Shown here: piece after piece, positions 5,526 through 25,369 of the stretch | Numbering within the stretch: position 1 is the first letter of the stretch | Layout of the letters: the number at the start of each line of letters is the position of its first letter | Origin: Sphingosinicella sp. | GTDB taxonomy: Bacteria > Pseudomonadota > Alphaproteobacteria > Sphingomonadales > Sphingomonadaceae | Assembly: GCA_016793845.1 (NCBI GenBank) | Contig: JAEULI010000021.1 | Coordinates: forward strand, 1-45,562 | DNA: 45,562 bases | Reading direction: 5' to 3' | Program-made: the position numbers and the translations under genes | The notes under the pieces: generated by a model | What the model was told of the DNA's origin: nothing | Seen by the model: the letters and a program-made list of their open reading frames with translations, nothing else | Database searches by the model: none

Positions 5526-7937
5526 GTGCACCTGCGAAATCATGTGACGATCAGGGCTGCAGTCGCCAGTGGCGTGCTGCTTGGCTCCACCATGCTGACG
5601 GCACCGGCGCTTGCACAGGAAGCGCAGGACGTTATCGGCGACACTATCATCATCACGGCGCAGAAGCGCGAGGAAAACCTGCAGGACGTGCCGATCGCGG
5701 TCGTCGCGCTCGGAACGGCGAAATTGCAGCAGCTTCAGGTGCAGGATTTCGACGACTACGCACGCTACCTGCCGAGCCTGTCTTATCAATCGCTTGGGCC
5801 GGGCTCTTCGAACGTCTATTTCCGCGGCGTCGCCTCGGGCGAGAATGCGAACCATTCGACCTCGCTGCCGTCGGTCGGCATGTATCTCGACGAGCAGCCG
5901 ATCACGACCATCCAGGGCAACCTCGACATCCACATCTACGACATCGCGCGTGTCGAGGCGCTCGCGGGTCCGCAGGGCACGCTCTATGGGGCGTCGAGCC
6001 AGGCCGGTACGGTGAAGATCGTGACCAACCGTCCGGACACGAGCGGCTTCTACGGCGCAGTCGATGCCGAGGTGAACACGATCGCGCACGGCGAGGAAGG
6101 CTATGTCCTCGAAGGCTTCATCAACGCGCCGCTTTCGGACAATGCGGCGGTGCGTGTCGTCGGTTGGTACGACAAGGACGGCGGCTACATCGACAATATT
6201 CCGGGCTCGCTGACCTTCCCGACTTCGGAGATTACCTTCAACAACGCACCGTACGTGGAGGATGACTATAACGACGTCGAGACCTACGGTGGCCGCATTG
6301 CGCTCGAGATCGATCTCAACGAGAACTGGACCGTACTGCCGACCCTGATGGGCCAGAAGCAGAAGAGCTATGGCTCGTTCGCTCAGGAGTCCGGGCTCGG
6401 CGAGCTGCAGGTGCAGCAGTTCAATCCGGAGCGCTACAACGACCGCTGGTTCCAGGCCGCGCTCACCATCGAAGGCAAGATCGGTAGCTGGGATCTGACC
6501 TATGCGGGCGCTTACATGAAGCGCAAGATCAACAGCGAATCCGACTATGTCGACTACGCGTATTTCTATGATGCGCTCTACGAAGCCGGGGGTTCGTTCT
6601 ACGACAACGACGATAATCTGGTGAACCCGAACCAGTACATCATCGGCATCGATCGCTTTACGAAGCAGAGCCACGAACTGCGCATCGCCTCACCGGCCGA
6701 TAAGCCGCTGCGCTTCATCGGCGGCGTGTTCTATCAACGCCAGTCGCACAACATCGAGCAGAACTACATCGTCGACAACATTGCCGATGCGATCACCGTG
6801 CCGGGCACGGACAGCAATATCTGGCTGACCAAGCAGCTGCGCATCGACCGCGACTACGCGGCGTTCGGTGAAGTTTCCTACGACCTGACGGAGAAGCTGA
6901 CGCTGAGCGGCGGTATCCGCGTCTACAAATACAAGAACTCGCTCGAAGGCTTCTTCGGATACAGCGACGGCTTCAGCAGCCGGACGGGTGTTGCGGCGTG
7001 TTTCCGGGATGGGAACGACGAGATTCTTCCCCCGACGATCAAGGGCAGCCCCTGCACCAACCTCGACAAGACGACGTCGGACACGGATTTCATCCACAAG
7101 CTGAACGCGACCTACAAGCTGACGGACGATGCGCTGGTCTACGCGACATGGTCGCGCGGTTTCCGGCCGGGCGGCGTCAACCGGCGCGGTACGCTGCCGC
7201 CATACGGGGCGGATGAGCTCGACAACTATGAGCTTGGCTGGAAGACGACGTGGGCGGGCGGTGCGTTCCGCTGGAACGGCGCCGTCTATTACGAGAAGTG
7301 GTCCAACATCCAGCTCTCGTTCCTTGGCGCGAACGGCCTTACCGAGGTCCGCAACGCCGGTGACGCGCGCATCTGGGGTATCGAAAGCGACATCTTCATC
7401 CGCGCATCGGAGGGCCTGACCTTCAACGCGGGCTTCAGCTACAACGATGCGCAGAGCACCACGGATTTCTGTCTCATCGCCAACCCGCAGTTCGATTGTA
7501 CGCTGGCGGGGCCGGACGAGGAGGAGAACGCATTGCTGGCGCCTTCCGGCACGCGTCTCCCGGTCTCGGCGAAGTTCAAGGGCAATGCCTTTGCGCGCTA
7601 CGAATTCCCGGTGGCAGATCTCAAGGCGCATTTCCAGGGCGGCCTCGTTTACGAGGGCAAGCGCACCAGCGATCTTCGCCTTTACGAGCGCGGCATCGTG
7701 GGTTCGCTCCCCTCCTACACGACAGTGGACGTCAGCGCGGGCGTGACCAACGGATCGTGGACGGTGGAACTCTACGCCCGCAACCTGTTCGACTCGCGCG
7801 GACAGGTGACGCGCACGATCCAGTGCGGCGAAAGCGTTTGCGGCGATCCGGACGGCGTGACCGATATCGGCGGCAAGTTCTACACGATCGTGACGACGCC
7901 GCGGACGATCGGTCTCAAGGTCGGCACCAAGTTCTGA
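5526..7937 (+). CDS. TonB-dependent outer-membrane receptor
   Basis: An 803-residue outer-membrane receptor. The signal peptide ends at APALA-QEAQD. It is followed by a TonB-box-like DTIIITAQKREENLQDVP, a plug domain with FRGVASGEN and GPQGTLYGASSQAGTVKIVT, and a long barrel ending in a terminal Phe (LKVGTKF). The start is GTG at 5526 because it is preceded by GAGAGGGGG at good spacing. A TTG 22 codons upstream would extend the signal peptide without need. The family imports scarce large nutrients such as siderophores, vitamins, glycans or peptides using proton-motive force through TonB-ExbBD. The ligand is not readable from sequence. Its neighbours (permease, peptidase, amine-catabolism operon) argue for an amine- or peptide-containing ligand, which is inference. 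Confidence 0.93.
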   Translation: MHLRNHVTIRAAVASGVLLGSTMLTAPALAQEAQDVIGDTIIITAQKREENLQDVPIAVVALGTAKLQQLQVQDFDDYARYLPSLSYQSLGPGSSNVYFRGVASGENANHSTSLPSVGMYLDEQPITTIQGNLDIHIYDIARVEALAGPQGTLYGASSQAGTVKIVTNRPDTSGFYGAVDAEVNTIAHGEEGYVLEGFINAPLSDNAAVRVVGWYDKDGGYIDNIPGSLTFPTSEITFNNAPYVEDDYNDVETYGGRIALEIDLNENWTVLPTLMGQKQKSYGSFAQESGLGELQVQQFNPERYNDRWFQAALTIEGKIGSWDLTYAGAYMKRKINSESDYVDYAYFYDALYEAGGSFYDNDDNLVNPNQYIIGIDRFTKQSHELRIASPADKPLRFIGGVFYQRQSHNIEQNYIVDNIADAITVPGTDSNIWLTKQLRIDRDYAAFGEVSYDLTEKLTLSGGIRVYKYKNSLEGFFGYSDGFSSRTGVAACFRDGNDEILPPTIKGSPCTNLDKTTSDTDFIHKLNATYKLTDDALVYATWSRGFRPGGVNRRGTLPPYGADELDNYELGWKTTWAGGAFRWNGAVYYEKWSNIQLSFLGANGLTEVRNAGDARIWGIESDIFIRASEGLTFNAGFSYNDAQSTTDFCLIANPQFDCTLAGPDEEENALLAPSGTRLPVSAKFKGNAFARYEFPVADLKAHFQGGLVYEGKRTSDLRLYERGIVGSLPSYTTVDVSAGVTNGSWTVELYARNLFDSRGQVTRTIQCGESVCGDPDGVTDIGGKFYTIVTTPRTIGLKVGTKF

Positions 7938-7959
7938 TACCGCGCGGCGGGAGCTTCGT

Positions 7960-9297
7960 ATGAACGCCAAAGCTCCCGCCGTCCGGCCGCTCGGTTTCTG
8001 GATGGCGCTCGCGCTGGTCATGGGCAACATGATCGGCTCGGGCGTTTTCATGCTGCCCGCGAGCCTCGCACCCTTCGGCTGGAACGCCGTGTTCGGCTGG
8101 GTGCTGACCATCGGGGGGGCGCTCTGCCTCGCCTATGTGTTCGCGACGATGGCGCGCGAGATGCCGCACGCGGGCGGGCCGCACGGTTTCGTGGAAGCGG
8201 CGTTCGGGCATCTGCCCGCGTTCCTCATCAGCTGGTCTTACATCATTTCCATTCTGGTCGGCGTCGCGGCGCTGGCGACGGGCGGTGTCAGCTACCTCAC
8301 CGCGTTCGCGCCGGACATTGCAGCGACGGCGGGCGCCCCAGCCGTGCTTGCCGTGTCGCTGCTCTGGGCGCTTATCATTCTCAACACGCGCGGGGCGGGC
8401 GCCGCCGGGCGCTTCCAGTTGCTGACGCTCGGGCTCAAGCTGCTGCCGCTCGCCCTCATCGTGGGGATCGCGGCCGTGGTTCTTATGGGCGGGGCGGAGC
8501 CCGCGACGCCCTATGTGCCCGAGACGATCTCGATGACTGCAATCAGCGCGACCGCCGCGCTGACGCTGTGGGCGATGCTCGGCTTCGAATCCGCCTGCGT
8601 GCCGCAGGACAAGGTCGACCGGCCGCAGACCACGATCCCGCGCGCCACCATGGCGGGCACATTTATCGTGGGCCTCATCTACTTCGCGGTCTGCACGGCG
8701 GTGATCATGCTGATGCCCGCGGATGTGGTCGCCAATTCGAACGCGCCGCTCGCGGACGTGATCGCCGGCTACTGGGGAACGGGCGCCGGAATCGCCGTGG
8801 CGCTGTTTGCCGCGGTGAGCGCGATCGGCGCGATCAACGGCTGGATTCTTATACTGGGCGAGTATCCGCTCGCCATGGCGCGGAAGGGCGATTTCCCGCA
8901 CCTCTTCCGCGACGTGAACGCACGCGGCACGCCGGTGCGCGGCATCCTGATCGGCGGCGCGCTCATCACGGTGCTGGTGCTTTCGAACTATACGCGCAGC
9001 ATGGCGGGCCTGTTCACGTTCATGGCGCTGCTCTCCACCTCCGCGACGCTCGTGCTCTACTTCGCGGGGGCTGCCGCGGCGGTCCGGCTGATGCTGAAGC
9101 GGCGGCTGACGACCACGCCGCTGCTCGCCGTTCTGACATCGCTCGGCCTCATCTATGCGATATGGGCGTTTCAGGGCGCAGGGGCCGAAGCGAACGGCTG
9201 GGCGCTCGTGCTGCTGATCGCGGGGCTTCCGGTCTATCTGCTCGTGCGCCGTCAAAAAGCAGCACAAGGTGTACAACAGGGCGCGACAAATGGTTAA
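7960..9297 (+). CDS. APC-superfamily amino acid / polyamine permease (AdiC/PotE-like)
   Basis: A 445-residue inner-membrane protein with about twelve hydrophobic helices. Helix 1 carries the unwound substrate-binding motif MIGSGVFMLPASLAPFG. Helix 6 contains WAMLGFESACVPQDKVDRP, which resembles arginine/agmatine and putrescine/ornithine antiporters of the APA group. It should move an amino acid or polyamine across the inner membrane. The ATG is preceded by GGCGGGAG and lies 22 bases after the receptor stop, so the two are likely co-transcribed. With the glutamine-synthetase/oxidase/aminotransferase operon nearby, it is a good candidate for the amine importer of that pathway. The true substrate remains inferred. 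Confidence 0.88.
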   Translation: MNAKAPAVRPLGFWMALALVMGNMIGSGVFMLPASLAPFGWNAVFGWVLTIGGALCLAYVFATMAREMPHAGGPHGFVEAAFGHLPAFLISWSYIISILVGVAALATGGVSYLTAFAPDIAATAGAPAVLAVSLLWALIILNTRGAGAAGRFQLLTLGLKLLPLALIVGIAAVVLMGGAEPATPYVPETISMTAISATAALTLWAMLGFESACVPQDKVDRPQTTIPRATMAGTFIVGLIYFAVCTAVIMLMPADVVANSNAPLADVIAGYWGTGAGIAVALFAAVSAIGAINGWILILGEYPLAMARKGDFPHLFRDVNARGTPVRGILIGGALITVLVLSNYTRSMAGLFTFMALLSTSATLVLYFAGAAAAVRLMLKRRLTTTPLLAVLTSLGLIYAIWAFQGAGAEANGWALVLLIAGLPVYLLVRRQKAAQGVQQGATNG

Positions 9298-13179: not shown

Positions 13180-13943
13180 TCTTCAACCGCCACGCCGTGT
13201 GGGCGATCTACAAGTTCGAGCTGGCGCGCTTCCGGCGCACGGTCTGGACGAGCCTCATCACCCCCGTGATCACGACGACGCTCTACTTCATCGTGTTCGG
13301 CTCGGCGATCGGCTCACGGATGCAGGAAGTGGGCACGGTGCCTTACGGCGCCTTCATCGTGCCGGGGCTGATGCTGCTGACGATGCTGACCGAAAGCATC
13401 TCCAACGCTTCGTTCGGCATCTACATGCCGAAGTGGTCGGGAACGATCTACGAGTTGCTCTCTGCGCCGATTTCGGCGTTCGAGACCGTGCTCGCCTATG
13501 TGGGGGCGGCGGCGACGAAATCGGTGATCCTCGGCATCGTGATCCTCGCGACCGCGAACCTGTTCGTGGACATCGACATCGTGCATCCGCTGTGGATGCT
13601 GCTGTTCATGGTGCTGCTCGCCGTGACGTTCTGCCTTTTCGGCTTCATCATCGGTATATGGGCGAAGAGCTTCGAGCAGCTGCAGATCATTCCGCTGCTC
13701 GTGGTGATGCCGCTCACATTCCTTGGCGGCGCCTTTTATTCGATCGACATGCTGCCCGCCGCGTGGCGCACGGCAACGCTGTTCAACCCGATCGTCTATC
13801 TGATGAGCGGGTTCCGCTGGAGCTTCTTCGGCAAGGGCGACGTGAGCGTCGAACTCAGCCTGATGGCGATGTTCGGCTTCCTGACGCTCTGTCTCGCGAT
13901 CGTCTGGTGGATCTTCCGGACGGGTTACCGGCTGAAGAGCTGA
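13176..13943 (+). CDS. ABC-2 type transporter permease (YadH-like)
   Basis: A 255-residue inner-membrane protein with about six hydrophobic helices and the ABC-2 signature region ([25 protein letters not shown]; the conserved LGGAFY-type segment is diagnostic of YadH/DrrB-like permeases). It pairs with the ATPase encoded upstream through an ATGA overlap and should form the export channel as a dimer. Its last 19 bases overlap the 3' end of the convergent RND pump gene, so transcripts from the two sides are antisense there. Confidence 0.9.
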
Positions 13944-16900
13944 GCGAAGGGTCTGCGCCGCCGCCGTCTGCGCGGGCGCGCCAGCAGCAGGTACATCACC
14001 GGCGTGACGATGCGGCTGAGCAGCGTCGAGGAGATGAGGCCGCCGATGATGACCCACGCCAGCGGCGAATAGAGCGCCGAACCGCCGAGCGCGAGCGGGA
14101 GAAGACCGCCGATCGCCGTGACCGAGGTGAGTAGCACCGGCAGGAAGCGGATCTCGCCCGCCTGCTCGATCGCCTCGCGCAGCCCGACGCCGCGGGCGCG
14201 AAGCTGCGACGTGAAATCGACGAGCAGGATCGAGTTCTTGATCTCGATGCCGATGAGCGCGACGAAGCCGATGATGCCCATGTAGCTCATCGGATAGCCT
14301 GTGAGCAGCAGCGCGATGATGCCGCCGAACATGCCGAGCGGGATGACGCCCGCGACCACGGCAACCTCGCGGAAGCGGCCGAATTCCGCAACGAGCACGG
14401 CCATGATGCTGAACACGGCGAGGAGCAGGATGCTGCCGATACCATCGAAGCTCTGCGCGCTTGCCTCTGCCTCGCCGCCGATGCCGAGGGCGTAGCCCTG
14501 CGGGAGTGTGAGGCTTTGCAGGCGCTCGACGACATCCTTGTTGACGCGGGAGGTAAGGTAGCCGGCCTCGGTCCACGCGGTGACGGTGATGTTGCGTTCG
14601 AGCTGGTAGCGATCGATGCGCGGCGGCACGCTCTTCAGATACGGATTGGCGACCTCCGCGAGCGGGATCGCGCTGCCGCTGCTGGTGGTGACGTAGACGG
14701 ATTGCAGCGCGGAAACGGGCTGCCGCTCTTCCATGGGAAGCCGAACGACGACGGGATAGGTATCGCCTTCGTCGTCGCGGAAGCTCGCCGCTCGCTCACC
14801 GGCGATGGCGAGACGCAGCGCGCGCCGGGGCTCGCCCGGCGGCACGCCGAGCAGCGCGGCCTTGTCCGCATCCAGCCCCAGGTCGAGGTCGACGCGGTCG
14901 ACCGCGAGGGGATTGTCGATATCGCGCGTGCCGGGTGTGGCGCGGATGATCTTCGCAACTTCGCCGGCGATCATCTTCAGGACGCCATTGTCCGGGCCGC
15001 TGATGCGGATGGCGATCGGCGCGTCGATCGGCGGGCCGTTCTCGAACTTGCGGACCGTGATGCGGGCGTCGGGATCGATGCTGAACTTGCCGCGCAGGCG
15101 ATCGAGCATCGCGTCGCTCTCTCCCGCGGTCCATTCGTTCATCACGACAAACACCGCGCCCTTGCGCGATTCCTCGGTGAGCGAACGCACGTTGTAGTAG
15201 ACCTGCGGGTTGCCCGCGCCGCTGTTTTCCATGAACGCGGCGACGCTGGTTTCTTTCGCCACTTCGTCCGCGACGCGGCGCACGACGCGGTCGGTCTGGG
15301 CGACGCTCGTCCCTTCGGGGGTTTCGACCTCCACCATGAAATAGGGCGCGTCCGACGCCGGGAAGAGCTGCCAGCCCGCGACCGGGATGAGGCCGAGCGC
15401 ACCGATGCACAGCGCCATAGAAATCGCGAGCGTGCGGTGCGGCTTTTCGAGTGCGTAATGCAGGACGGGCCCGTAAAGCCGGTGGATGCCGCGGGTGAGC
15501 GCCTTCAGGATCGGGTTGCCTTCAGGATCATCGTCGCGGCGCAGAACGCGGCTGGCGAGAAACGGGATGATGGTGAGCGAGACGACGAGCGAGGCTCCGA
15601 CCGTGTAGATGACGGCAAGCGGCAGCGAACGCGTGAATTCGCCCGCGCCGCCGGGGAGGAATACCAGCGGCAGGAAGGCGAACAGCAACACCCCCGTGGA
15701 GCCGAACACGGCGGCGGTGATTTCCTTTGTGCCGGAAAGCGCGGCGGCGGTGCGCTCCGCGCCCATGCGCAGGTGGCGGGAGATGTTCTCCGTCACCACG
15801 ATCGAATCGTCCACGATGAGCCCGAGCGCGAGGATGAAGCCCGACACGGAAAGCTGGTTCAGCGAAAAGTTGAATACGTGCAGCAACAGCACTCCGGTCG
15901 CGAGGCTGAGCGGGATCGAGATCATCACGATCAGCGAGGCGCGCGGGCCGAGCGGCAGCAGCGTGATGAGGACGAGGCCGAGCGCGATGCCGAAATCGCG
16001 CGCGAGCGTATCGAGTCGCGAGCGGATGTCGCGGGACTGATCGAAGCCGAGTTCGAGCTTGATGTCGGGCGGAAGCTGGCTGCGCGCCTGCGCGAGCGCG
16101 GTCTCGATCTCCTTGCGGATGCCGAGGACGTTGCCGTTTTCCTTCTGCATGGCGGTGACGAACACGGCGCGCTTGCCGTTGAAGCGCGTGATGTGCGTGT
16201 GTTCGGCGGTGGACCAGTTCACTTCGGCGACATCGCCGACGCGCACCAGTGTTCCGTCTTCGGCGCGGACCGGCACCGCGCGAATCTCGGCAAGGCCGCG
16301 ATAGGCGCCGCCGGCGTCGACGTTCAGGCGGTGCTCGCCCGAATGGACGGCGCCCGCGGGCAGATCGACGCCGCCGCTCTGAAGCGCAGTGACGAGCGAC
16401 GAGGGGGAAATGCGCAGCTCGGCGAGGCGCCCGCCATCGATGGCGATGCGGACCTCGGGGTTCGGCAGGCCGTAAATCTCGGTGGAGCGGATGCCGTCGA
16501 CACGCGAGAGGCGCTCGGACAGGTCGGTCGCGTATTTCTCCATGCGCCGCCACGAGGCGGAATCGCTGACGAGCGCGAGCTGGACGACGGCGGCATCGCT
16601 GGTGCGGACTTTGAGGTACTGGAGGCTGGCAAGGCCGGAGGGCAGGCGATCGCGGATGGCGCCGATCTCGCGCACGACCTCGTCGAAATGCTGCTCAGGA
16701 TCGCCGCCCCATTCGAACTCGGCGGTGATGACGGAGGCGCCGTCCTTCGAGGTGGAATCGACGTCGACGATGCCGTCGAGGCCCTTGATCACTTCCTCGA
16801 TCGGCTTTGCGACCGTTTCTTCCATGTCCTGCGCATCGGCGCCGGGCTGCGAGGCGACGACGAGCACGACGGGGATCGGCAGGTGCGGATCGACGGCGCG

Positions 16901-16999
16901 CGGGATGTTCAGGAAGGCGTAGATGCCGAGCGCGGCAAGCAGCGTGAAGAGAACGAGCGTCAGCTGCCAGCGGCTGACGGCGAAGCCGGCGAGGTTCAT
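13925..16999 (-). CDS. RND efflux pump, inner-membrane transporter subunit
   Basis: A 1024-residue AcrB/HAE1-class proton-driven transporter. It has the N-terminal helix followed by [17 protein letters not shown], the porter-domain repeat pattern, and the TM4 proton-relay motif [19 protein letters not shown] with its Asp pair. A second set of helices near the C-terminus includes [14 protein letters not shown]. Family length is about 1020-1050, so it is complete. The ATG overlaps the stop of the adaptor gene by the ATGA tetranucleotide. It should work with that adaptor and an outer-membrane channel; no TolC-like gene is present in the window. The substrate is unknown. Confidence 0.94.
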
Positions 17000-18045
17000 G
17001 TGCCGGAAACGGTCGGGGTGACGCGGCTGCCGTCGGTAAGCTGGCTGATCCCGGTGACGGCGATGCGTTCCCCGGCCTTGAGACCGGCGAGAACCGCGAC
17101 GCCCCGGTCATTCATGGCGCCCGTGACGATGCGGCGCGGCTTCACGCGCTTGCCGCTCTCATCGAGCACATAGACGAAGGCTTCCCCCGCGCGCGCTGCG
17201 AACACGGCGCTGCTCGGCACGAGCATCGTTTCCGGGCCACCGCCGCGCATGGAGAGCGTCGCGTGGCCGATCTGGCCCGACCTCAGTGCCGGATCGGGCG
17301 GGAGCGCGAGTTCGACCGCGAAGGTTCCGGTGCGGTCGTCGGCGCGGCCGGCGACTTCGATGATGCGCGCGGCGCGGGGGGCGGGGCCGAGTGCCGCGAT
17401 ATCGATGGGAATACTGCCGGTGCGGATGATGCCCGCGGCCTGCACATCAGTGATAGGGACGCGCAGCACGAAGCCGTCGCGATTGTCGCCGAAGCTGATC
17501 ACCGGCGTTCCGGCGTTCACGACCTGGTTCACCTCTGCGGAGCGGCGGAGGATATGGCCGTCCGCAGGCGCGACGATGCGGGCGGTGCTGGCGGCGAACT
17601 GCGCGGACGTGGTTGCAGCGGCGGCGGCGCGATAGGCGGCTTCGGCGCTGTCGAGCCGGGCGCGGGTGAGCCAGCCCTTGGCGAACAGGTCGCGGGCGCG
17701 GGCGAGATCGGCCTGCGCGCGGGTGCGTTCGGCGGCAGCAGCGGCAAGGTCTGCGCCGACGGTCGTGGTGTCGAGCGCGGCGAGGAGCTGGCCTTTCCGC
17801 ACACGGTCGCCTTCCTCCACCGCGATGGCGGCGATGCGTCCGGGTGTCGTAAAGCCGAGATCGATTTCGCGGCGCAGCCGCACGGTTCCGACCGCGCGGA
17901 AGGTGTCTGCACTTTCCACGGGCCGGGCTTCGGTTACCCGGATCGGCACGGGCGCGGCTTCGGACGGCTTTGCAGCCTCATCGCTCGCCGAACATGCGGC
18001 GAGACCAAGGAAGAAGGCCGCTGCGAAGGGCCGAACGGAATTCAT
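16996..18045 (-). CDS. RND efflux periplasmic adaptor (HlyD/AcrA family) lipoprotein
   Basis: A 349-residue membrane-fusion protein. Met at 18045 is followed by a short hydrophobic segment and a lipobox LGLAAC, with Cys18 as the likely acylated residue; a start nine codons further upstream is possible. The biotinyl-lipoyl-like half IAAIAVEEGDRVRKGQLLAALD leads to an alpha-helical hairpin rich in Ala/Arg (about residues 90-140). The beta-barrel and membrane-proximal domains follow (GERIAVTGISQLTDGSRV). It links the RND transporter, encoded next with a 4-base overlap, to an outer-membrane channel. The upstream 110-base intergenic stretch is relatively A+T-rich and should hold the operon promoter; TAGAAT on the minus strand is a possible -10 box. 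Confidence 0.92.
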   Translation of the reverse strand: MNSVRPFAAAFFLGLAACSASDEAAKPSEAAPVPIRVTEARPVESADTFRAVGTVRLRREIDLGFTTPGRIAAIAVEEGDRVRKGQLLAALDTTTVGADLAAAAAERTRAQADLARARDLFAKGWLTRARLDSAEAAYRAAAAATTSAQFAASTARIVAPADGHILRRSAEVNQVVNAGTPVISFGDNRDGFVLRVPITDVQAAGIIRTGSIPIDIAALGPAPRAARIIEVAGRADDRTGTFAVELALPPDPALRSGQIGHATLSMRGGGPETMLVPSSAVFAARAGEAFVYVLDESGKRVKPRRIVTGAMNDRGVAVLAGLKAGERIAVTGISQLTDGSRVTPTVSGT

Positions 18046-18155
18046 AGCGGCTGATCCACTTCCGAGTCGCACTCAGACGCAATACTGGACTGGTGATTCT
18101 AAAGGAAGATAGCCTCTAAAAATCTTAAACGATACGCTTCTGCATCAATGCGTTG

Positions 18156-19826
18156 CTAGCGCGCGGCGCTTGGCGGTTCGGCCAGCGTATCGGGAACGAG
18201 TTCAACGCTTCTGAGCGCGCTGCGGCCGTATTCATCCTCTGCCGCGTTCTGGATCGTGCCCGAGGTGGCGCTGCGCGAAGCGACCTTGATGCCGCGTTCT
18301 CCGAGGGCGGCGGCAACGGCGGCAGCGCGATCCTCTGCAAGCTTGTCGCGCGCGTCGCCGCTGTCGGCCTCTCCGCTTGCGACGCGGCCGTTGACGAGGA
18401 CGGTGGTGATCCCCCAGCGCTTCAGTGCCCACGCGGCATCCACCACGGCCTCGACGCCCTTCGGCGACAGCGTGGCAGCGTCTTCATCGAACGGAATGAG
18501 CGGGAGCTGGCCGACCGGCGGAACCACCATTACCGTCCAGCCCGGGTGGCGGACGGCGACACGGGTTTCGAGCGCGCGCCAGGCGGGGAGGCGGATGCCC
18601 GGCATCGCTTCGGCCGTCATCGAGGCGAAGCGGCGGGCAAGATCGACGTTCACGGCCGAGGGTGACTGCGCGCCGAGGATGGCGAGCTCGGCGGCAACCT
18701 GCTGCGCATCGGCTTCCGTGGCCTTGCGCAGCGATTCGCCCTGCGCGCGCTTCGCGGTTTCCAGTTCGCGCTGCTCGCGTTCCTTGAGCGTCGCATCGCT
18801 GTCGACGAGGATCTGCGCCAGATTGATCGCAACCGGTTCGTCGAGACGCGCACGCAGGCGCGCGCTGATCTGCTGATCGGCATCGTAGCGGCGCTGCGGC
18901 GTCTGCACCGTGGCGCGGGCGACGATCGGCTCGGCGGAGAAATCCATTTCGAGCTGCGAAACGCGCGCGTCCGGACCGAAATAGGCGCCGATGGCTTCGC
19001 GCGTCAGGCGGCTCGCCAGCGCTTCCCACGCGATCTGGTGCAGCGAGAACAGCAGCGGCACCGACAGCACGGCGAAAATCCCGAGGATGCCGATGGTCTG
19101 GATGCGCGTGGAACGGTCGGACATGGCCGTGCCGAAACCGTACATCTTGGCCATCACCGCCGCGCTCAGCGCGATGGCGAGCAGGTTGGTCATGAACAGG
19201 CCGAGCGCCCCGAAGAACACGGTGCCGTTCAGCGTTGCAAGGCCGTAGCCGACGACGGCGAGGGGAGGCATGAGGGCGGTGGCGATCGCAACGCCGACGA
19301 TCGTCTCGCCGCGCCCGCGAATGACGGCATAGGCGCCCGCGAGCGCCGAGAAGATCGCGACGAGCAGATCGAAGAAGTTCGGTCGCGTCCGCGCGAGGAT
19401 TTCGGAGGTGACCGCCTGGAGCGGCGACAAATAGACGACGAGGGCGCAAAACGCGACCGCTGCGGCGACGCCGATTCCCAGTGTCGTCAGCGCGAGCTTC
19501 GCTTCGGCGAGGTTGAAGCGCGCAAGGCTGAAGCCCAGCGCCATGATCGGACCCATCAGCGGTGAGATCAGCATGGCGCCGATCACCACCGCCGGCGACG
19601 AAAGCAGCAGACCGAGCACGGCGATGCCCGCCGACATGATGAGCATGAAGCCGAAGCGGGCGGACCAGTGCGCCTCGCCATCCAGCTTCGCGGCGACGTC
19701 TGCGTGATTGACCGAGCGCACCACGGAACGCCGCCAGTAGGCGCGCTGGCGGCGCCACAATGTCGATGCGTGGTGAAGCGTTCTATCGATGCGGGCCTTC
19801 ACGCCCGTGCGCGTCTTGCTATCCAA
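18156..19826 (-). CDS. DUF389 membrane protein with OmpA-like C-terminal domain
   Basis: A 556-residue protein. Residues about 55-270 form hydrophobic helices with the DUF389 hallmark SSPAVVIGAMLISPLMGPIM. A soluble part follows, with a charged coiled-coil-like stretch (DATLKEREQRELETAKRAQ). The last 110 residues match the OmpA/MotB fold pattern: IPFDEDAATLSPKGVEAV, then a DKLAEDRAAAVAAALGERG helix and a RSALRSVELVP end. The Asp of the usual GHTD motif is replaced (NGRV) while the Arg of the helix is kept, so peptidoglycan binding is uncertain. The start is TTG, overlapping the previous gene's stop by 8 bases; a GTG eight codons later is an alternative. DUF389 function is unknown. It belongs to a coupled operon with an SLC13 permease and a DUF815 ATPase. 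Confidence 0.82.
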   Translation of the reverse strand: MDSKTRTGVKARIDRTLHHASTLWRRQRAYWRRSVVRSVNHADVAAKLDGEAHWSARFGFMLIMSAGIAVLGLLLSSPAVVIGAMLISPLMGPIMALGFSLARFNLAEAKLALTTLGIGVAAAVAFCALVVYLSPLQAVTSEILARTRPNFFDLLVAIFSALAGAYAVIRGRGETIVGVAIATALMPPLAVVGYGLATLNGTVFFGALGLFMTNLLAIALSAAVMAKMYGFGTAMSDRSTRIQTIGILGIFAVLSVPLLFSLHQIAWEALASRLTREAIGAYFGPDARVSQLEMDFSAEPIVARATVQTPQRRYDADQQISARLRARLDEPVAINLAQILVDSDATLKEREQRELETAKRAQGESLRKATEADAQQVAAELAILGAQSPSAVNVDLARRFASMTAEAMPGIRLPAWRALETRVAVRHPGWTVMVVPPVGQLPLIPFDEDAATLSPKGVEAVVDAAWALKRWGITTVLVNGRVASGEADSGDARDKLAEDRAAAVAAALGERGIKVASRSATSGTIQNAAEDEYGRSALRSVELVPDTLAEPPSAAR

Positions 19827-21537
19827 ATCCTCTACTCAACAGCCAGGCCGCAACACCGATGACGATGACCGAAACGCCCACCCCCATCCGCGCATAATCC
19901 GAGAACCGATAGCCGCCCGGCCCCATGACGAGCAAGTTGTTCTGGTGCCCGATGGGGGTGAGGAAGTCCGACGACGCGCCAATCAGCACCATGATGAGGC
20001 CCGCATCGGGCGAGAATCCAAGATGCTCGGACATCTGGATCGCGAGCGGCCCCATGATGATCGCCGTCGCCACGTTGTTGAGGAGCGCGGAGAGGAGCAG
20101 CGTCGCCGTGCCGATCGCCGCGAACGTGACGAACACGCTCGCATCGCCGAGCCACGCGCTCAGCCAGTCCGACAGGATGGTGACCGCGCCTGTGGATTCG
20201 AAGCTCTGCCCGACAGGGATCATCGCGGCGAGCAGGACGATGACGGGCCAGTCGATCGCGCGGTAGACTTCCGGGGACGGAATGAGACGCGTTGCCGCTA
20301 GGATGCCAGCGGCGGCGAAGAAGGCGATCGCCGGTGAAAGATCGAAGGCCACGATGCCCACGATCGCAGCGGCGAAAATGCTGACGATCGCCGCAGCGCG
20401 GCGCGGCTCCACGGGCGGCGTGTCGAGCCGGCCGATTTCGAGCAGGCGCTCGTTCGCGATGAAGGCGCCGAGCTGATCCGCCGGACCGTGGATGAACAGC
20501 TGGTCGCCGGGCTGGATTTCCATTTCCGAAAGCGGCAGCCGCTCGTGCGCGGCGCGCGGCCCAGCCGCGACGACGCGGAGTTGCTGTCCGCTCCGCCATG
20601 TGACCGCTTCATACCTTTGGCCGATCAGGAAGGAACCGTGCGCGACGACTGCCCGCACCGTCGTGGCGTCGGGAGCCGGGCTTCGGGCAACGACCGGGAA
20701 GGTGTCGGTGGCATCCGAAAGTTCCCAAGGGTCCTTGCGGCTGAGGACGAGCACGCGGCGCCGATCGCCCCCGATTGCCTGTGAAATGCTGTCGAAGCTC
20801 GCAAGGAGACGGCTGCCGGCCTTGCGGAGCGTGGCGCGCAGGTCCGCCTCGCCGGTTTCCACGGGCACATCGAGTTCGAAGATGCGCCAAGGGTTGGCCA
20901 TCGCCCGCACCGGCGCGCGCGCATTGGGCAGCAGGCGCCAGCCGATCACCGCCATGTAGAGCAGCCCCGCCGCCGCCACGCAGCTTGCCACCGGGGTCAT
21001 CTGGAAAAAGCTGAACGGCTCGCCGAGCGCATTTTGCCGGATCGACGACAGAATGAGGTTCGCGGGCGTGCCGATCAGCGTCGTCATGCCGCCAAGGATC
21101 GTCGCGAAGGCGAGCGGCATCAGCACCGCCGACGGAGAGCGGCGCGAATCGATGGCGACCTGCGTGGCGATCGGCATGGTGATGACGAGCGCAGCGATGT
21201 TGTTCATGAACGCCGACAGCACGGCACCGACCACCATCACGATCGCAAGCCGGACGGGGAAAGGGGCTTGGCCGGGGATCACCCGGCGCGTGAATGCCGC
21301 CGCCACGCCGCTTAGCTCGACCGCGCGGCCGACCACGAGCACGGCGGCAACCGCGATCACCGCCGGATCGGAAAAGCCGGCAAGCGCCTCCTTCGGGCTG
21401 ATGATGCCGAACACCAGCGCGGCGAGCAGCGCGGTGACGGCGACGAGGTCGTGCCGCACCTTTTCGCTGATGAACAGCACCAGCGAGAGGGCGAGAATCG
21501 TCGAGCTGACGAGCGCCGGTTCGAAGGAAAAGCTCAG
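19819..21537 (-). CDS. SLC13/CitT-like permease with central RCK_C (TrkA-C) domains
   Basis: About 572 residues. Two helix bundles (residues about 5-190 and 365-570) surround a soluble centre with two TrkA-C-like units, such as VVAHGSFLIGQRYEAVTWRSG followed by EIQPGDQLFIHGPADQLGAF. Each bundle holds a paired transport motif: FMNNIAALVI with IGTPANLILSS in the first half, LLNNVATAIIMGP with ASSDFLTPIGHQNN in the second. This architecture is that of sodium/anion (dicarboxylate or sulfate) symporters. No ATG is well placed: CTG at 21537 overlaps the ATPase stop, while GTG at 21585 or codons further upstream in the same frame are alternatives. The start is therefore uncertain. Its stop overlaps the DUF389 gene start. 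Confidence 0.85.
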   Translation of the reverse strand: MSFSFEPALVSSTILALSLVLFISEKVRHDLVAVTALLAALVFGIISPKEALAGFSDPAVIAVAAVLVVGRAVELSGVAAAFTRRVIPGQAPFPVRLAIVMVVGAVLSAFMNNIAALVITMPIATQVAIDSRRSPSAVLMPLAFATILGGMTTLIGTPANLILSSIRQNALGEPFSFFQMTPVASCVAAAGLLYMAVIGWRLLPNARAPVRAMANPWRIFELDVPVETGEADLRATLRKAGSRLLASFDSISQAIGGDRRRVLVLSRKDPWELSDATDTFPVVARSPAPDATTVRAVVAHGSFLIGQRYEAVTWRSGQQLRVVAAGPRAAHERLPLSEMEIQPGDQLFIHGPADQLGAFIANERLLEIGRLDTPPVEPRRAAAIVSIFAAAIVGIVAFDLSPAIAFFAAAGILAATRLIPSPEVYRAIDWPVIVLLAAMIPVGQSFESTGAVTILSDWLSAWLGDASVFVTFAAIGTATLLLSALLNNVATAIIMGPLAIQMSEHLGFSPDAGLIMVLIGASSDFLTPIGHQNNLLVMGPGGYRFSDYARMGVGVSVIVIGVAAWLLSRGFG

Positions 21538-22376
21538 CCGAGCCGCACGCCGGCCTCGCCGGCGACCTCCTGCACGTATTGCCACGCGACGCGGCCTGAA
21601 CGCCCGCCGCGCCCGGTCGCCCATGTGACGGCGGCCTGCGGATCGATATCGAGGCCGTAGGCGCGGCCGTAAGCCTCGACCATCGCCAGATACGTCGTCT
21701 GGTCGCAGGCGTGGAAACCGAGCGACAGGCCGAAGCGGTCGGCGAGTGCGAGGCGGTCGTCGAGCACGTCGCGGGCGTTGATGCTGTTTGCGAGTTCGTT
21801 TTCGCGCATCTCGCGCGGCACGATGTGGCGGCGGTTCGAGGTGACGTAGAAGCGGCAATTGTCCGGCCGCGCTTCGATGCCGCCTTCGAGAACGGAGCGC
21901 AGGCGCCGGTACTGGCGCTCGTCCGTATCGAAGCTGAGATCGTCGCAGAACAGCACGAAGGCGCGATCGAGCTTCGCGAGGCGGCGCAGCAGCAGCGACA
22001 CGTCGGCGATATCGTCGCGTTCGATCTCGACGAGGGCGATGGCCTCGCCCGCCGCCTGCAGATGCGCGACGGCGGACTTCACGAGGCTCGACTTGCCCAT
22101 GCCGCGCGAACCCCAAAGCAGGATGTCGTGCGCGGGCAGGCGTTTCGCCAGCCGCTCAGTGTTGCGGAGCAGGGCTTCGCGCTGCGCATCGATGCCGACG
22201 TAGCGGTCCAGCGGCTGCGCGCGGAGCGTCGCGACCGGCCGCAGCGCACCGTGATCCCAGGCGTAGGCGGGGGCATCGGGCGCCTCCCCGATGGCGGCCG
22301 GTGCGGGTGCGATCCGATCCAGCGCATCGGCGATGCGTGATAAAAGGCTGATTTCAGAGGATTCAGGCGTTTTCAT
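21534..22376 (-). CDS. DUF815 family AAA-type ATPase
   Basis: A 280-residue P-loop ATPase. Walker A is GSRGMGKSSLVKS (about residues 110-122), Walker B is FVLFCDDLSFD, and a sensor-like YVTSNRRHIVP follows. The pattern RPVATLRAQPLDRYVGIDAQRE before the P-loop is characteristic of DUF815, an AAA family whose role is not established. ATG at 22376 is preferred over an upstream frame extension because MKTPESSEISLLSRIADALDR is the natural N-terminus. It is the first gene of a three-gene operon with the permease and the DUF389 protein. It diverges from yajC with only 72 bases between them. Confidence 0.88.
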   Translation of the reverse strand: MKTPESSEISLLSRIADALDRIAPAPAAIGEAPDAPAYAWDHGALRPVATLRAQPLDRYVGIDAQREALLRNTERLAKRLPAHDILLWGSRGMGKSSLVKSAVAHLQAAGEAIALVEIERDDIADVSLLLRRLAKLDRAFVLFCDDLSFDTDERQYRRLRSVLEGGIEARPDNCRFYVTSNRRHIVPREMRENELANSINARDVLDDRLALADRFGLSLGFHACDQTTYLAMVEAYGRAYGLDIDPQAAVTWATGRGGRSGRVAWQYVQEVAGEAGVRLG

Positions 22377-22448: not shown

Positions 22449-22796
22449 ATGCTCATTTCTCCAGCCTATGCGCAAGCCGCGGGGGCAGCGCCGGGAGGCG
22501 GCGCGGCTTTCCTGAACGCCATCATGCCGTTCCTGCTCATCATCCCCATCTTCTACTTCCTGCTGATCCGTCCGCAACAGCGGCGCCTGAAGCAGCACCG
22601 CGAGATGATCTCGAACGTGAAAAAGGGCGACACGGTGGTGACCGCCGGCGGCCTGATCGGCAAGGTCGTGAAGGTGACCGACGACGAGGTCGAGGTCGAG
22701 CTTGCAGCCTCCACGAAGGTTCGCGTCGTGAAATCGACGCTTTCCGAGGTTCGCGCCGCCGGGACCGGCAAGCCCGCCAACGACACGGCCGCCTGA
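22449..22796 (+). CDS. yajC: preprotein translocase subunit YajC
   Basis: A 115-residue single-pass inner-membrane protein. An alanine/glycine-rich N-terminus leads to the membrane helix FLLIIPIFYFLLIRPQQRR and then to the conserved cytoplasmic VKKGDTVVTAGGLIGKV segment. YajC associates with SecDF and the SecYEG holotranslocon to help export. ATG at 22449 gives the typical short N-terminus MLISPAYAQA, while the open frame begins 20 codons earlier. secD follows after 16 bases, so yajC-secD-secF-Mth938 form one operon. Confidence 0.95.
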   Translation: MLISPAYAQAAGAAPGGGAAFLNAIMPFLLIIPIFYFLLIRPQQRRLKQHREMISNVKKGDTVVTAGGLIGKVVKVTDDEVEVELAASTKVRVVKSTLSEVRAAGTGKPANDTAA

Positions 22797-22812
22797 AGGT
22801 TGACCCCGCGCC

Positions 22813-24405
22813 ATGCTTGAATTCTCCAAGGTGAAGATCTGGTCGATCATCGCCGTACTCGTTGCGGGCTTCATCTTCGCGATCCCCAACGCCTTCCCTG
22901 AAGAGCAGGTTCAAGCCTGGCCGAGCTGGGCGCCCAAGAAACAGATGAACCTCGGTCTCGACCTCAGGGGCGGGAGTCACATCCTGCTCGAGGCGAATGC
23001 CGACGGTCTTGCGCGCGCCAACATCGACAAGATGGAGGAAGACGCGCTTTCCGAACTGCGCCGTGCCGAAGGTGGCGCGATCGCGGTGGGCGATGTCAGC
23101 AATCGCGGCGGGCGCGTGAGCTTCCTCGTCCGCAATGTGGACGATGTCGACCGCGCGGTGGATTTGCTGCGGAACCTGTCGATGCCGATCGGCGTCACCG
23201 GGCAGCGCAGCTTCAACGTCGAGGTGGCGGACGGCAACCGCATCGTGCTGACGCAAACATCGGCGGGTCGCACGCAGGCGATGGAGAGCGCGATGACGCA
23301 GGCGGTGGAGGTGATCCGCCGCCGCATCGACGAACTCGGCACGCGCGAGCCGACGATCATCCGGCAGGGCAGCCAGCGCATCGTCGTGCAGGTGCCGGGG
23401 CTTCAGGATCCGTCCGCGCTGAAACAGCTTCTCGGCAAGACCGCGCAGCTCGAGTTCAAGCTTGTCGACATCACTGCCGACCCGGCGGACGTTGCGGCGG
23501 GCCGTGCGCCTGCGGGCAGCCAGATCCTGCAGATGGCGGATACCGGCCAGCCGATCGCGGTGAAGCGCCGCGCGATCATCACCGGCGACCAGCTGATGGA
23601 CGCGCAGCAGACGCTGCAGCAGGGCCAGTGGGTGGTGAGCTTCCGCTTCGACAGCGCGGGCGGGCGCCGCTTCGCGCGCACCACGCAGGAGAACGTCGGC
23701 AAGCCGTTCGCGATCGTGCTCGACAACCGTGTGATCAGCGCGCCCAACATCAACGAGCCCATTCTTGGCGGATCGGGCGTCATTTCCGGCAGCTTCAACG
23801 CTGAGAGCTCGAACGAGCTGGCGATCCTGCTGCGCTCGGGCAAGCTTCCGGTGGAACTCAAGGTCGTCGAGGAACGCACCGTCGGCCCCGACCTCGGCGC
23901 CGACTCGATCCGCGCCGGCACGGTCGCTTCGCTGGTCGCGGTGCTCGCCGTGGGCGTGTTCATGCTCGTGACCTACGGGCGGTTCGGCGTCTATGCGAAC
24001 ATCGCGCTGGTGCTGAACGTGGTCCTGATCCTCGCGGTCATGTCCCTGACCGGCGCGACGATGACGCTGCCGGGCGTCGCGGGCATGGTGCTTACCATCG
24101 GTGCCGCGGTCGACGCCAACGTGCTCATCAACGAGCGTATCCGCGAGGAACGCCGCAAGGGCAGGAACGTGAGGGCGGCGGTGGAAACGGGCTTCAAGGA
24201 AGCCAGCCGCACGATCTGGGACGCGAACACCATGAACCTGATCGTTGCCGCCGTGATGTTCGCGTTCGGCTCCGGCCCGATCAAGGGCTTCGCGGTGGTG
24301 CTCACCATCGGTATCGTTACGTCCGTGTTCACGGCTGTGACCGTTGCCCGCCTGTTTATCGTCAACTGGCTGAACCGTAAGCGGCCAACCACCATCACGA
24401 TCTGA
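22813..24405 (+). CDS. secD: protein translocase subunit SecD
   Basis: A 530-residue RND-superfamily component of the Sec system. The N-terminal helix is followed by the D1 motif GLDLRGGSHILLEAN. The periplasmic P1 head contains the Gln/Arg-rich VEVIRRRIDELGTREPTI segment. The C-terminal six-helix domain has the D4 motif GAAVDANVLINERIREE. SecDF uses proton-motive force to pull proteins through on the periplasmic side. It is complete and followed by secF after 13 bases. Confidence 0.97.
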   Translation: MLEFSKVKIWSIIAVLVAGFIFAIPNAFPEEQVQAWPSWAPKKQMNLGLDLRGGSHILLEANADGLARANIDKMEEDALSELRRAEGGAIAVGDVSNRGGRVSFLVRNVDDVDRAVDLLRNLSMPIGVTGQRSFNVEVADGNRIVLTQTSAGRTQAMESAMTQAVEVIRRRIDELGTREPTIIRQGSQRIVVQVPGLQDPSALKQLLGKTAQLEFKLVDITADPADVAAGRAPAGSQILQMADTGQPIAVKRRAIITGDQLMDAQQTLQQGQWVVSFRFDSAGGRRFARTTQENVGKPFAIVLDNRVISAPNINEPILGGSGVISGSFNAESSNELAILLRSGKLPVELKVVEERTVGPDLGADSIRAGTVASLVAVLAVGVFMLVTYGRFGVYANIALVLNVVLILAVMSLTGATMTLPGVAGMVLTIGAAVDANVLINERIREERRKGRNVRAAVETGFKEASRTIWDANTMNLIVAAVMFAFGSGPIKGFAVVLTIGIVTSVFTAVTVARLFIVNWLNRKRPTTITI

Positions 24406-24418
24406 TCGGACCCAGCAC

Positions 24419-25369
24419 ATGCGGCTCCTGAAACTTGTTCCGGACAACACCAACATCGGCTTCGTGCGGATGCGCTGGGTGGCGTTCGCCGTCACGCTGG
24501 TCCTGACGCTCAGTTCCATCGCGCTTCTGATGACGCGCGGCCTCAACCTCGGCGTCGACTTCGTCGGCGGTCTGATGATGGAGGTGAAATTCGAGCAGCC
24601 CGTGAAGCTCGATGAGCTTCGCGCCACAGTCGATGGTCTCGATTACGGCTCCTCGGCGCTGCAGAACTTCGGCGGGCCGGATACGGTGCTCGTGCGCCTG
24701 CCGCTGCCGCCCGGCGACGATGCCGCCGTTCAGAAAGTCGTGCAGAAGGTGCAGGCCGCGATCAGCGAGAACCACAAGGATGCTTCGTTCCGGCGCGTCG
24801 AGACGGTGAGCGGCAAGGTTTCCGACGAGCTGATCCGCGACGGCATCATCGCCATCGTGCTTTCGATGGGCGCGATCGCGCTGTTCACGTGGTTCCGATT
24901 CGAATGGCATTTTGGCGTCTCGACCATTGTGGCGCTCATCCACGACGTGACGGTGACGCTCGGCTTCTTCGCGCTGACCCAGCTCGAATTCGATCTCAAC
25001 ATCGTCGCGGCCGTGCTCACAATCATCGGCTATTCGCTGAACGACAAGGTCGTCATCGACGACCGCATACGTGAGAACCTGCGCAAGTACCGGCAGATGG
25101 ACATCGGCCCGCTGATCGACCTTTCGGTGAACGAGACGCTGTCTCGTACCTATGCGACGACGATGGCGCTGACGCTGGCGCTTGGCTCGCTGCTGCTGCT
25201 CGGCGGCGACGTGCTGTTCGGCTTCACCGCCGCGATGCTGCTCGGCATCGTCATCGGCACCTACTCTTCGGTGTTCGTGTCGTCTTCGCTGCTGATCTCG
25301 CTCGGCGTCGGGCCGCACACGTTCGCACCGGCCGACACGGGTGCCGCCGAAAAGGTCGGCAGCCGCTAG
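24419..25369 (+). CDS. secF: protein translocase subunit SecF
   Basis: A 316-residue partner of SecD with six membrane helices. The D1-like motif GVDFVGGLMMEVKF lies after the first helix. The cytoplasmic-side D4-like motif reads YSLNDKVVIDDRIRENL, and RTYATTMALTLALGSLLLLGG lies in the later helices. The length is normal for the family. It ends four bases before the Mth938-like gene. Confidence 0.97.
   Translation: MRLLKLVPDNTNIGFVRMRWVAFAVTLVLTLSSIALLMTRGLNLGVDFVGGLMMEVKFEQPVKLDELRATVDGLDYGSSALQNFGGPDTVLVRLPLPPGDDAAVQKVVQKVQAAISENHKDASFRRVETVSGKVSDELIRDGIIAIVLSMGAIALFTWFRFEWHFGVSTIVALIHDVTVTLGFFALTQLEFDLNIVAAVLTIIGYSLNDKVVIDDRIRENLRKYRQMDIGPLIDLSVNETLSRTYATTMALTLALGSLLLLGGDVLFGFTAAMLLGIVIGTYSSVFVSSSLLISLGVGPHTFAPADTGAAEKVGSR

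Follow-up and report, generated by a model that had tools for sequence, protein, structure and literature searches.

A permease and DUF389 gene pair next to a DUF815 ATPase gene in Sphingosinicella, with a predicted channel-like fold for the DUF389 membrane core

The window analyzed here is a 45,562 nucleotide (nt) stretch of DNA from Sphingosinicella sp. (contig JAEULI010000021.1). Three consecutive genes on its minus strand encode a DUF815 AAA-type ATPase, an SLC13/CitMHS permease and a DUF389 membrane protein (Table 1). A reading made from the sequence alone had described these as an overlapping operon, and re-reading of the codons confirms the three open reading frames and both overlaps. 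The DUF815 protein matches its Pfam family with an E value of 1e-87 (293.8 bits, cut-off 23.8) and has intact Walker motifs (GSRGMGKS and VLFCDD). The permease matches the CitMHS family (E 9.1e-68), and the DUF389 protein matches PF04087 over the whole Pfam domain (E 3.3e-38, 131.3 bits versus a cut-off of 23.9). The permease stop and the TTG start of the DUF389 gene overlap by 8 nt (positions 19819–19826). A promoter scan found no promoter, and five terminator-like sites were seen where 3.5 were expected. Genomes and loci are labeled G and L with three digits; G000 is the window genome and P0001 the window DUF389 protein.

Table 1. Positions of the genes and protein domains described in the text (aa, amino acids; TM, transmembrane)
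Feature	Position	Strand	Remarks
DUF389 protein	18156–19826	minus	556 aa; start TTG 19826, stop TAG 18156; 7 predicted TM helices, N-terminus inside, C-terminal part periplasmic
DUF389 membrane core	19119–19709	minus	residues 40–236; predicted FNT/aquaporin-like fold; weak repeat, residues ~59–107 and 154–202
OmpA/Pal-like C-terminal domain	18186–18521	minus	residues 436–547; Asp of the peptidoglycan motif not conserved
SLC13/CitMHS permease	19819–21537	minus	likely CTG start on the DUF815 stop (CTGA); stop TAG 19821–19819
Permease stretch resembling TrkA_C (RCK_C)	20458–20655	minus	below cut-off in the window protein
DUF815 AAA-type ATPase	21534–22376	minus	ATG 22376 to TGA 21534; Walker A and B intact
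RND periplasmic adaptor (MFP)	16996–18045	minus	open frame reaches 18072
RND efflux permease	13925–16999	minus	partner of the MFP gene
yajC-secD-secF	22449–25369	plus	divergent from DUF815; recurrent DUF815 neighbor

Close orthologues of the permease were searched for in 397 genomes of the family at E <= 1e-120. Eighteen genomes matched, and the loci outside the genus, 15 in 14 genomes, were counted apart. Nine of these 15 loci (8 of the 14 genomes, from 8 genera) have a DUF389 gene within 5 kb of the permease gene and on the same strand; approximately 0.06 loci are expected by chance, which like the other Poisson expectations given here is a rough value that ignores shared ancestry. A DUF389 gene is present in only ten of the 14 genomes, and thus the rate of linkage is 8 out of 10. 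The order is DUF389 followed by the permease in eight of the nine linked loci, with a CPA1 Na+/H+ antiporter gene between the two in five of them, and G160 has the permease followed by DUF389, the same order as in the window. In several loci 4-nt overlaps chain the DUF389, NhaP and SLC13 genes, with gene ends taken from a gene caller. NhaP, NhaA or ClC genes are found in eight of the nine linked loci, a gene termed c83 in seven, and MscS and DUF2254 genes in five each; L253 is a linked locus that has none of these. Comparison of the gene neighborhoods thus shows that in some Sphingomonadaceae the permease and DUF389 genes make up the core of an ion-transport module, to which Na+/H+ antiporters (NhaP, NhaA), ClC, MscS and DUF2254 proteins are often added. 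No viral contigs carrying the permease were confirmed.

A second set, found with the DUF389 alignment, consists of 80 named loci (the best 80 of 570). Within 5 kb of DUF389 these have SLC13 (9 loci), NhaA (9), NhaP (5), ClC, MscS, a Kch-type channel, BCCT and c83 (3 each) and DUF2254 (2), where the SLC13 count includes L145 from the genus and three weak matches of less than 30% identity. Named and unnamed loci may partly be the same genomes, and the locus counts are therefore not independent. Of the 41 genomes of the order that have DUF389, five carry NhaA no more than 5 kb away from it, versus 0.23 expected. The c83 gene encodes a membrane protein of ~403 aa (L089, positions 7354–8562, with homologues in L246–L251), and the L089 copy is without a Pfam, NCBIfam or PDB match. 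DUF2254 membrane proteins occur in clusters of DUF389, NhaP and SLC13 genes (L250, 4756–6156; L246, 6157–7431; L147, 12774–14177), often together with MscS.

The sequence-only reading had proposed a joint function for all three genes. This is partly supported: the permease and DUF389 go together, in view of the nine linked loci, but a joint function is rejected for DUF815. A survey of 147 genomes of the order (E <= 1e-20 for DUF815 and for P0001-like DUF389, E <= 1e-40 for the permease) found DUF815 in 91 genomes, the permease in 70 and P0001-like DUF389 in 41. Among the 30 best DUF815 loci, compared with 1.5-kb flanks, yajC and secD are beside DUF815 in 12 (window included), and the permease is adjacent in one, which is the window's own. 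Outside the genus, a comparison by hand of the positions listed for the 147 genomes found no DUF815 gene within 10 kb of a permease or DUF389 gene; the nearest DUF815 gene, in G062, is separated by 16 kb from a partial match to DUF389. Within Sphingosinicella, four of six genomes (the window, G147, G148 and G149) share the three-gene order, and the TTG start and 8-nt overlap of DUF389 are also kept in the latter three. This arrangement exceeds chance in the genus. A P0001-like protein is found in five of the six genomes, where the G151 copy is distant (47%) and located elsewhere. G150 and G151 keep the DUF815-yajC-secDF flank, which in G150 is split over two contigs, and the same MFP-RND flank, and have a TetR-family gene (PF00440, PF14246) between the flanks instead of the permease and DUF389 genes. 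In a small tree G148, which has the pair, branches beside the outgroup with a support of 0.73; G150 and G151, with a support of 0.97, fall between G148 and the other three genomes. Because of this placement, replacement of the pair by the TetR gene in G150 and G151 is more likely than a late gain of the pair, with modest tree support.

The homologues are thus usually unlinked across the Sphingomonadales in the case of DUF815, in view of the lack of linkage outside the genus, the single locus out of 30 and the state of G150 and G151, but not in the case of the permease and DUF389. DUF815 is apparently a housekeeping neighbor of yajC-secDF that precedes the pair by chance in Sphingosinicella and is outside the module. 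A cooperation of all three genes, in which the ATPase would power or remodel an envelope complex of the permease and DUF389, is consistent with the overlapping order in four genomes and with the intact Walker motifs. It is nevertheless largely refuted by G150 and G151, where DUF815 is present with neither the permease nor DUF389 adjacent. In addition, the association of DUF815 loci is with yajC-secD, and DUF815 is found in more than twice as many genomes as P0001-type DUF389. We consider such a cooperation most improbable. Overlapping genes can be local accidents, and among the genomes compared the DUF815 overlap is seen in this genus only, whereas the permease and DUF389 stay together under several arrangements.

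The junction between the DUF815 and permease genes is real, but the overlap as originally described needs a correction, as there is no ATG, GTG or TTG at this junction. In-frame start candidates are an ATG 29 codons upstream and a GTG 16 codons upstream of a CTG at position 21537, the CTG itself, and a GTG 19 codons downstream. The ATG is present in the window and G149 only. All four pair-bearing genomes share, among others, the GTG at -16, the CTG, and a CTG or GTG at +18/+19 codons. The CTG overlaps the DUF815 stop by 4 nt (CTGA, positions 21534–21537), and this overlap is kept in all four genomes. The gene caller used for homologue ends allows ATG, GTG and TTG as the only starts. In 13 of 14 homologues the called permease start directly precedes the conserved N-terminal stretch (in L244 it is inside the gene), and the CTG of the window is ~4 codons upstream of that point. 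In five loci (L159, L246, L247, L250 and L251) there is also a 4-nt overlap between the called permease start and the stop ahead of it. With GTG +19 as the start, half of the first helix would be lost, and with GTG -16 the protein would gain an Arg-rich leader. Since the called homologue starts lie near and the two GTG codons fit poorly, the permease start is likely CTG 21537, which would be read by reinitiation after DUF815. In Sphingosinicella the pair would then most likely be translated by coupling to DUF815 via the CTGA junction.

The permease is homologous to VcINDY, an SLC13/DASS transporter (E 4e-19; profile E 9e-18), and on the basis of this homology it most likely functions in Na+-coupled anion uptake. 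Differences are that its score is below the NCBIfam TIGR00785 cut-off (98.4 versus 198.6 bits) and that it carries NN motifs in both halves. The sequence-only reading had assigned RCK_C domains to the permease. The CitMHS assignment stands, but there is one TrkA_C match in the window protein and it is below threshold (20.1 bits, cut-off 27). Of 15 aligned members of the permease family, 13 have a TrkA_C stretch at E <= 0.01, with a best value of 1.1e-12. Such a stretch would lie between the two transport halves, a possible parallel to SAC1-like SLT transporters. PMC8780407 describes an intracellular loop with TrkA-C in SLT sulfate transporters.

The window DUF389 protein is a member of the DUF389 family (PF04087, TIGR00271/TIGR00341). 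It scores below the NCBIfam cut-offs of both TIGR00271 and TIGR00341, and it has a longer C-terminal part that ends in an OmpA-like fold. PF04087 is matched by 19 of 19 aligned members at E <= 0.01. The N-terminus is basic, with 12 Lys or Arg in residues 1–55. DUF389 occurs in both bacteria and archaea, as it is found in five of 14 control genomes, including those of Synechococcus elongatus, Methanocaldococcus jannaschii and Haloferax volcanii. The family is very rarely named in the literature searched, and the titles and opening parts of abstracts of the papers found describe neither a function for DUF389 nor an FNT-like fold. The fold hypothesis outlined below, together with the recurrent ion-transport partners, makes the family testable.

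Structural modeling shows a membrane core with a predicted channel-like arrangement. The full-length AlphaFold2 model has a mean pLDDT of 88.4, and its residues 35–236 match FNT channels and aquaporins with Z scores of 10.3–11.1. The core alone (residues 40–282) was refolded with a pLDDT of 82.4. VIA-align of this core-only model aligned 999 chains, 141 of them with Z >= 8, and the best 50 rows, which were those considered, are all FNT channels or aquaporins. The predicted core aligns with FNT channels over 185–200 residues (Z 9.8–11.6, root-mean-square deviation (rmsd) 3.8–4.9) and with aquaporins over ~168 residues (Z 9.1–10.6, mostly 3.2–3.8 Å; Z to 10.6 at 3.3 Å). There is also an internal sequence repeat, where TM1-TM2 aligns with TM4-TM5 (VIGAMLISPLMGPI versus IVGVAIATALMPPL), and its score is reached by none of 100 column shuffles. 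By this pairing of helices the repeat corresponds to the pseudo two-fold repeat of FNT/MIP channels. PMC5525234 describes FNT structures with broken TM2 and TM5 helices and a pseudo two-fold axis, a repeat also described there for MIP channels, as well as a central S-loop histidine (H209 in FocA). The DUF389 core thus shares with the FNT family (PF01226: FocA, NirC, HSC, PfFNT) a predicted six-helix hourglass, a broken TM2 and a weak two-fold repeat, and is in the same predicted fold class as the aquaporins (MIP). It is predicted to be an hourglass (FNT/aquaporin-like) pore with a broken TM2, a repeated second half and an added seventh helix, where the step from the predicted fold to a pore is one we infer. 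A first Foldseek run also gave ZnT/YiiP rows with E values from 5e-3, but query TM-scores of 0.10–0.20 and rmsd values of ~12–24, and these were taken as chance matches and rejected.

By way of the seventh helix, the C-terminal domain of DUF389 would come to lie in the periplasm. In the full-length model, residues 436–547 match Pal/OmpA domains with Z up to 12.7 (YfiB), and the OmpA label of the sequence-only reading is correct at the level of predicted fold; however, the sequence match is weak (26.4 bits, below the Pfam cut-off of 27.2), and PF00691 is found in 3 of 19 members. The peptidoglycan motif of OmpA/Pal domains consists of an Asp and an Arg. The aligned Arg is kept in DUF389, but the Asp is replaced by Ala, and for this reason binding of the domain to the cell wall is doubtful.

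These observations can be assembled into a proposed mechanism. The permease would take up an anion with Na+ under control of its RCK_C stretch, the antiporters would return Na+, and DUF389 would let a small solute or a weak acid (or else water) through passively, by a pore that may be held in place, or gated, at the cell wall. Jointly the permease, the antiporters and DUF389 would balance Na+, anions and turgor. The earlier description of a regulated transporter coupled to the envelope is still a fair reading for the pair, with DUF815 apparently not part of it. With a confidence slightly above even, we favor the overall reading that the permease and DUF389 form the core of a Na+/anion/osmotic homeostasis module, in which DUF389 is an hourglass-fold channel with a degenerate OmpA-like domain and DUF815 is outside. 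We are more tentative, and somewhat nearer to doubt than to acceptance, regarding the broader proposal that DUF389 represents a third lineage of hourglass channels besides FNT channels and aquaporins. In some Sphingomonadaceae it would, under this proposal, bear a periplasmic Pal-like domain and act passively alongside a Na+-coupled anion permease and Na+/H+ antiporters, with the balance of Na+, anions and turgor set from a single operon.

Both the fold and the neighborhood data include points that weigh against the favored reading. Z scores under ~13 can reflect a common arrangement in helical proteins, and the best Foldseek row for the core, the hydrosulfide channel HSC, has an E value of 0.33 with unrelated proteins close behind. 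The repeat is weak by hhalign (probability 15%, P 0.0018), and TM5, unlike TM2, is continuous in both models. Sequence homology between DUF389 and FNT is rejected after comparison of a 127-row profile, of which hhalign used 102 rows, with 28 FNT sequences: FNT (P 0.36) is no better than reversed FNT (P 0.42) or eight other membrane families used as controls (P 0.07–0.5, e.g., NhaP 0.07, NhaA 0.11 and SLC13 0.18). PF01226 has no match in the window DUF389 protein or the aligned members, and the DUF389 profile has no match to PDB sequences at E 10. There is no invariant or near-invariant His in 67 DUF389 sequences, and therefore no residue of the FocA H209 type. Two NPA motifs are a feature of the aquaporin family; the motif is absent from P0001, where the corresponding positions in the repeats read SPLM (88–91) and MPPL (186–189). 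The core also differs from FNT proteins by the extra TM7 and periplasmic domain. The lack of sequence homology to FNT and the weak Foldseek value would suit a different role for DUF389, in which it would serve an adjoining ion transporter as an accessory subunit or scaffold (cell-wall anchor or sensor), with the FNT/aquaporin match no more than a common helical arrangement. The OmpA/Pal-like C-terminal fold and the varying transporter partners also point in this direction. However, it is the membrane core that is the conserved part of the protein, with 50 of 243 columns invariant in 67 sequences, and not the PF00691 domain. In addition, the sequence repeat coincides with the hourglass halves, and the best 50 structure-search rows belong to one fold class. 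A scaffold role is accordingly judged unlikely, if deserving of consideration.

With respect to neighborhoods, G230 and G056 have both DUF389 and the permease but unlinked, and G155, G276, G224 and G388 have permease orthologues without DUF389. In 61 of the 80 named DUF389 loci the first query set of transporters (E 1e-15, flanks up to 10 kb) has no match in the locus; approximately half of the 61 carry names that we take to be Erythrobacteraceae. Three of the five cases of NhaA with DUF389 are from one genus. Another 19 DUF389 loci were compared, of which 17 lie outside the family and two are second copies within it. A single one has an SLC13 match, at 26.9% identity and beside a DUF389 gene too distant for recovery by tblastn, and none has a match to the other transporters. 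With the queries used, linkage to ion transporters is not seen in the 17 loci outside the family, and as far as sampled the link thus appears to be a feature of part of the Sphingomonadaceae. In Sphingosinicella soli, the nearest named relative (L145/G148), the permease frame is split. This split, together with that in L148 and the presence or absence of the pair at one site within the genus, could indicate that the permease and DUF389 are chance neighbors or a drifting remnant with no joint function, expressed by virtue of their position after DUF815. Such an explanation is improbable given that 8 other genera also have the pair, with frames that overlap or lie close together, and that the frames are open and conserved in G000, G147 and G149. 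The split frames are at L087 and L145 (G148:C27:11598–13348) and at L148 (11494–13093), and represent a frameshift or a sequencing error.

Downstream of the pair in the window are the MFP and RND genes. The region upstream of the MFP gene is largely alike in genomes with or without the pair, although less so in G148, and since it is alike in both states, MFP-RND probably forms a unit apart from the pair, with a conserved upstream region of its own. In G155 and G224 (L242 and L245) the permease gene is directly followed by an MFP-RND pair that is 47–63% identical to that of the window, and DUF389 is not present. Genus g61 shows this arrangement, with the permease directly ahead of such an MFP-RND pair, in two of its three genomes, none of which has a DUF389 gene. 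A link of the permease to this efflux pump as well is possible. An inverted repeat, GAGT-3 nt-ACTC, is found directly upstream of the MFP gene (window positions 18064–18074) and also in G147, G149, G150 and G151. The TetR gene is present at this site in G150 and G151 and absent from the window, and the repeat possibly represents an orphan operator.

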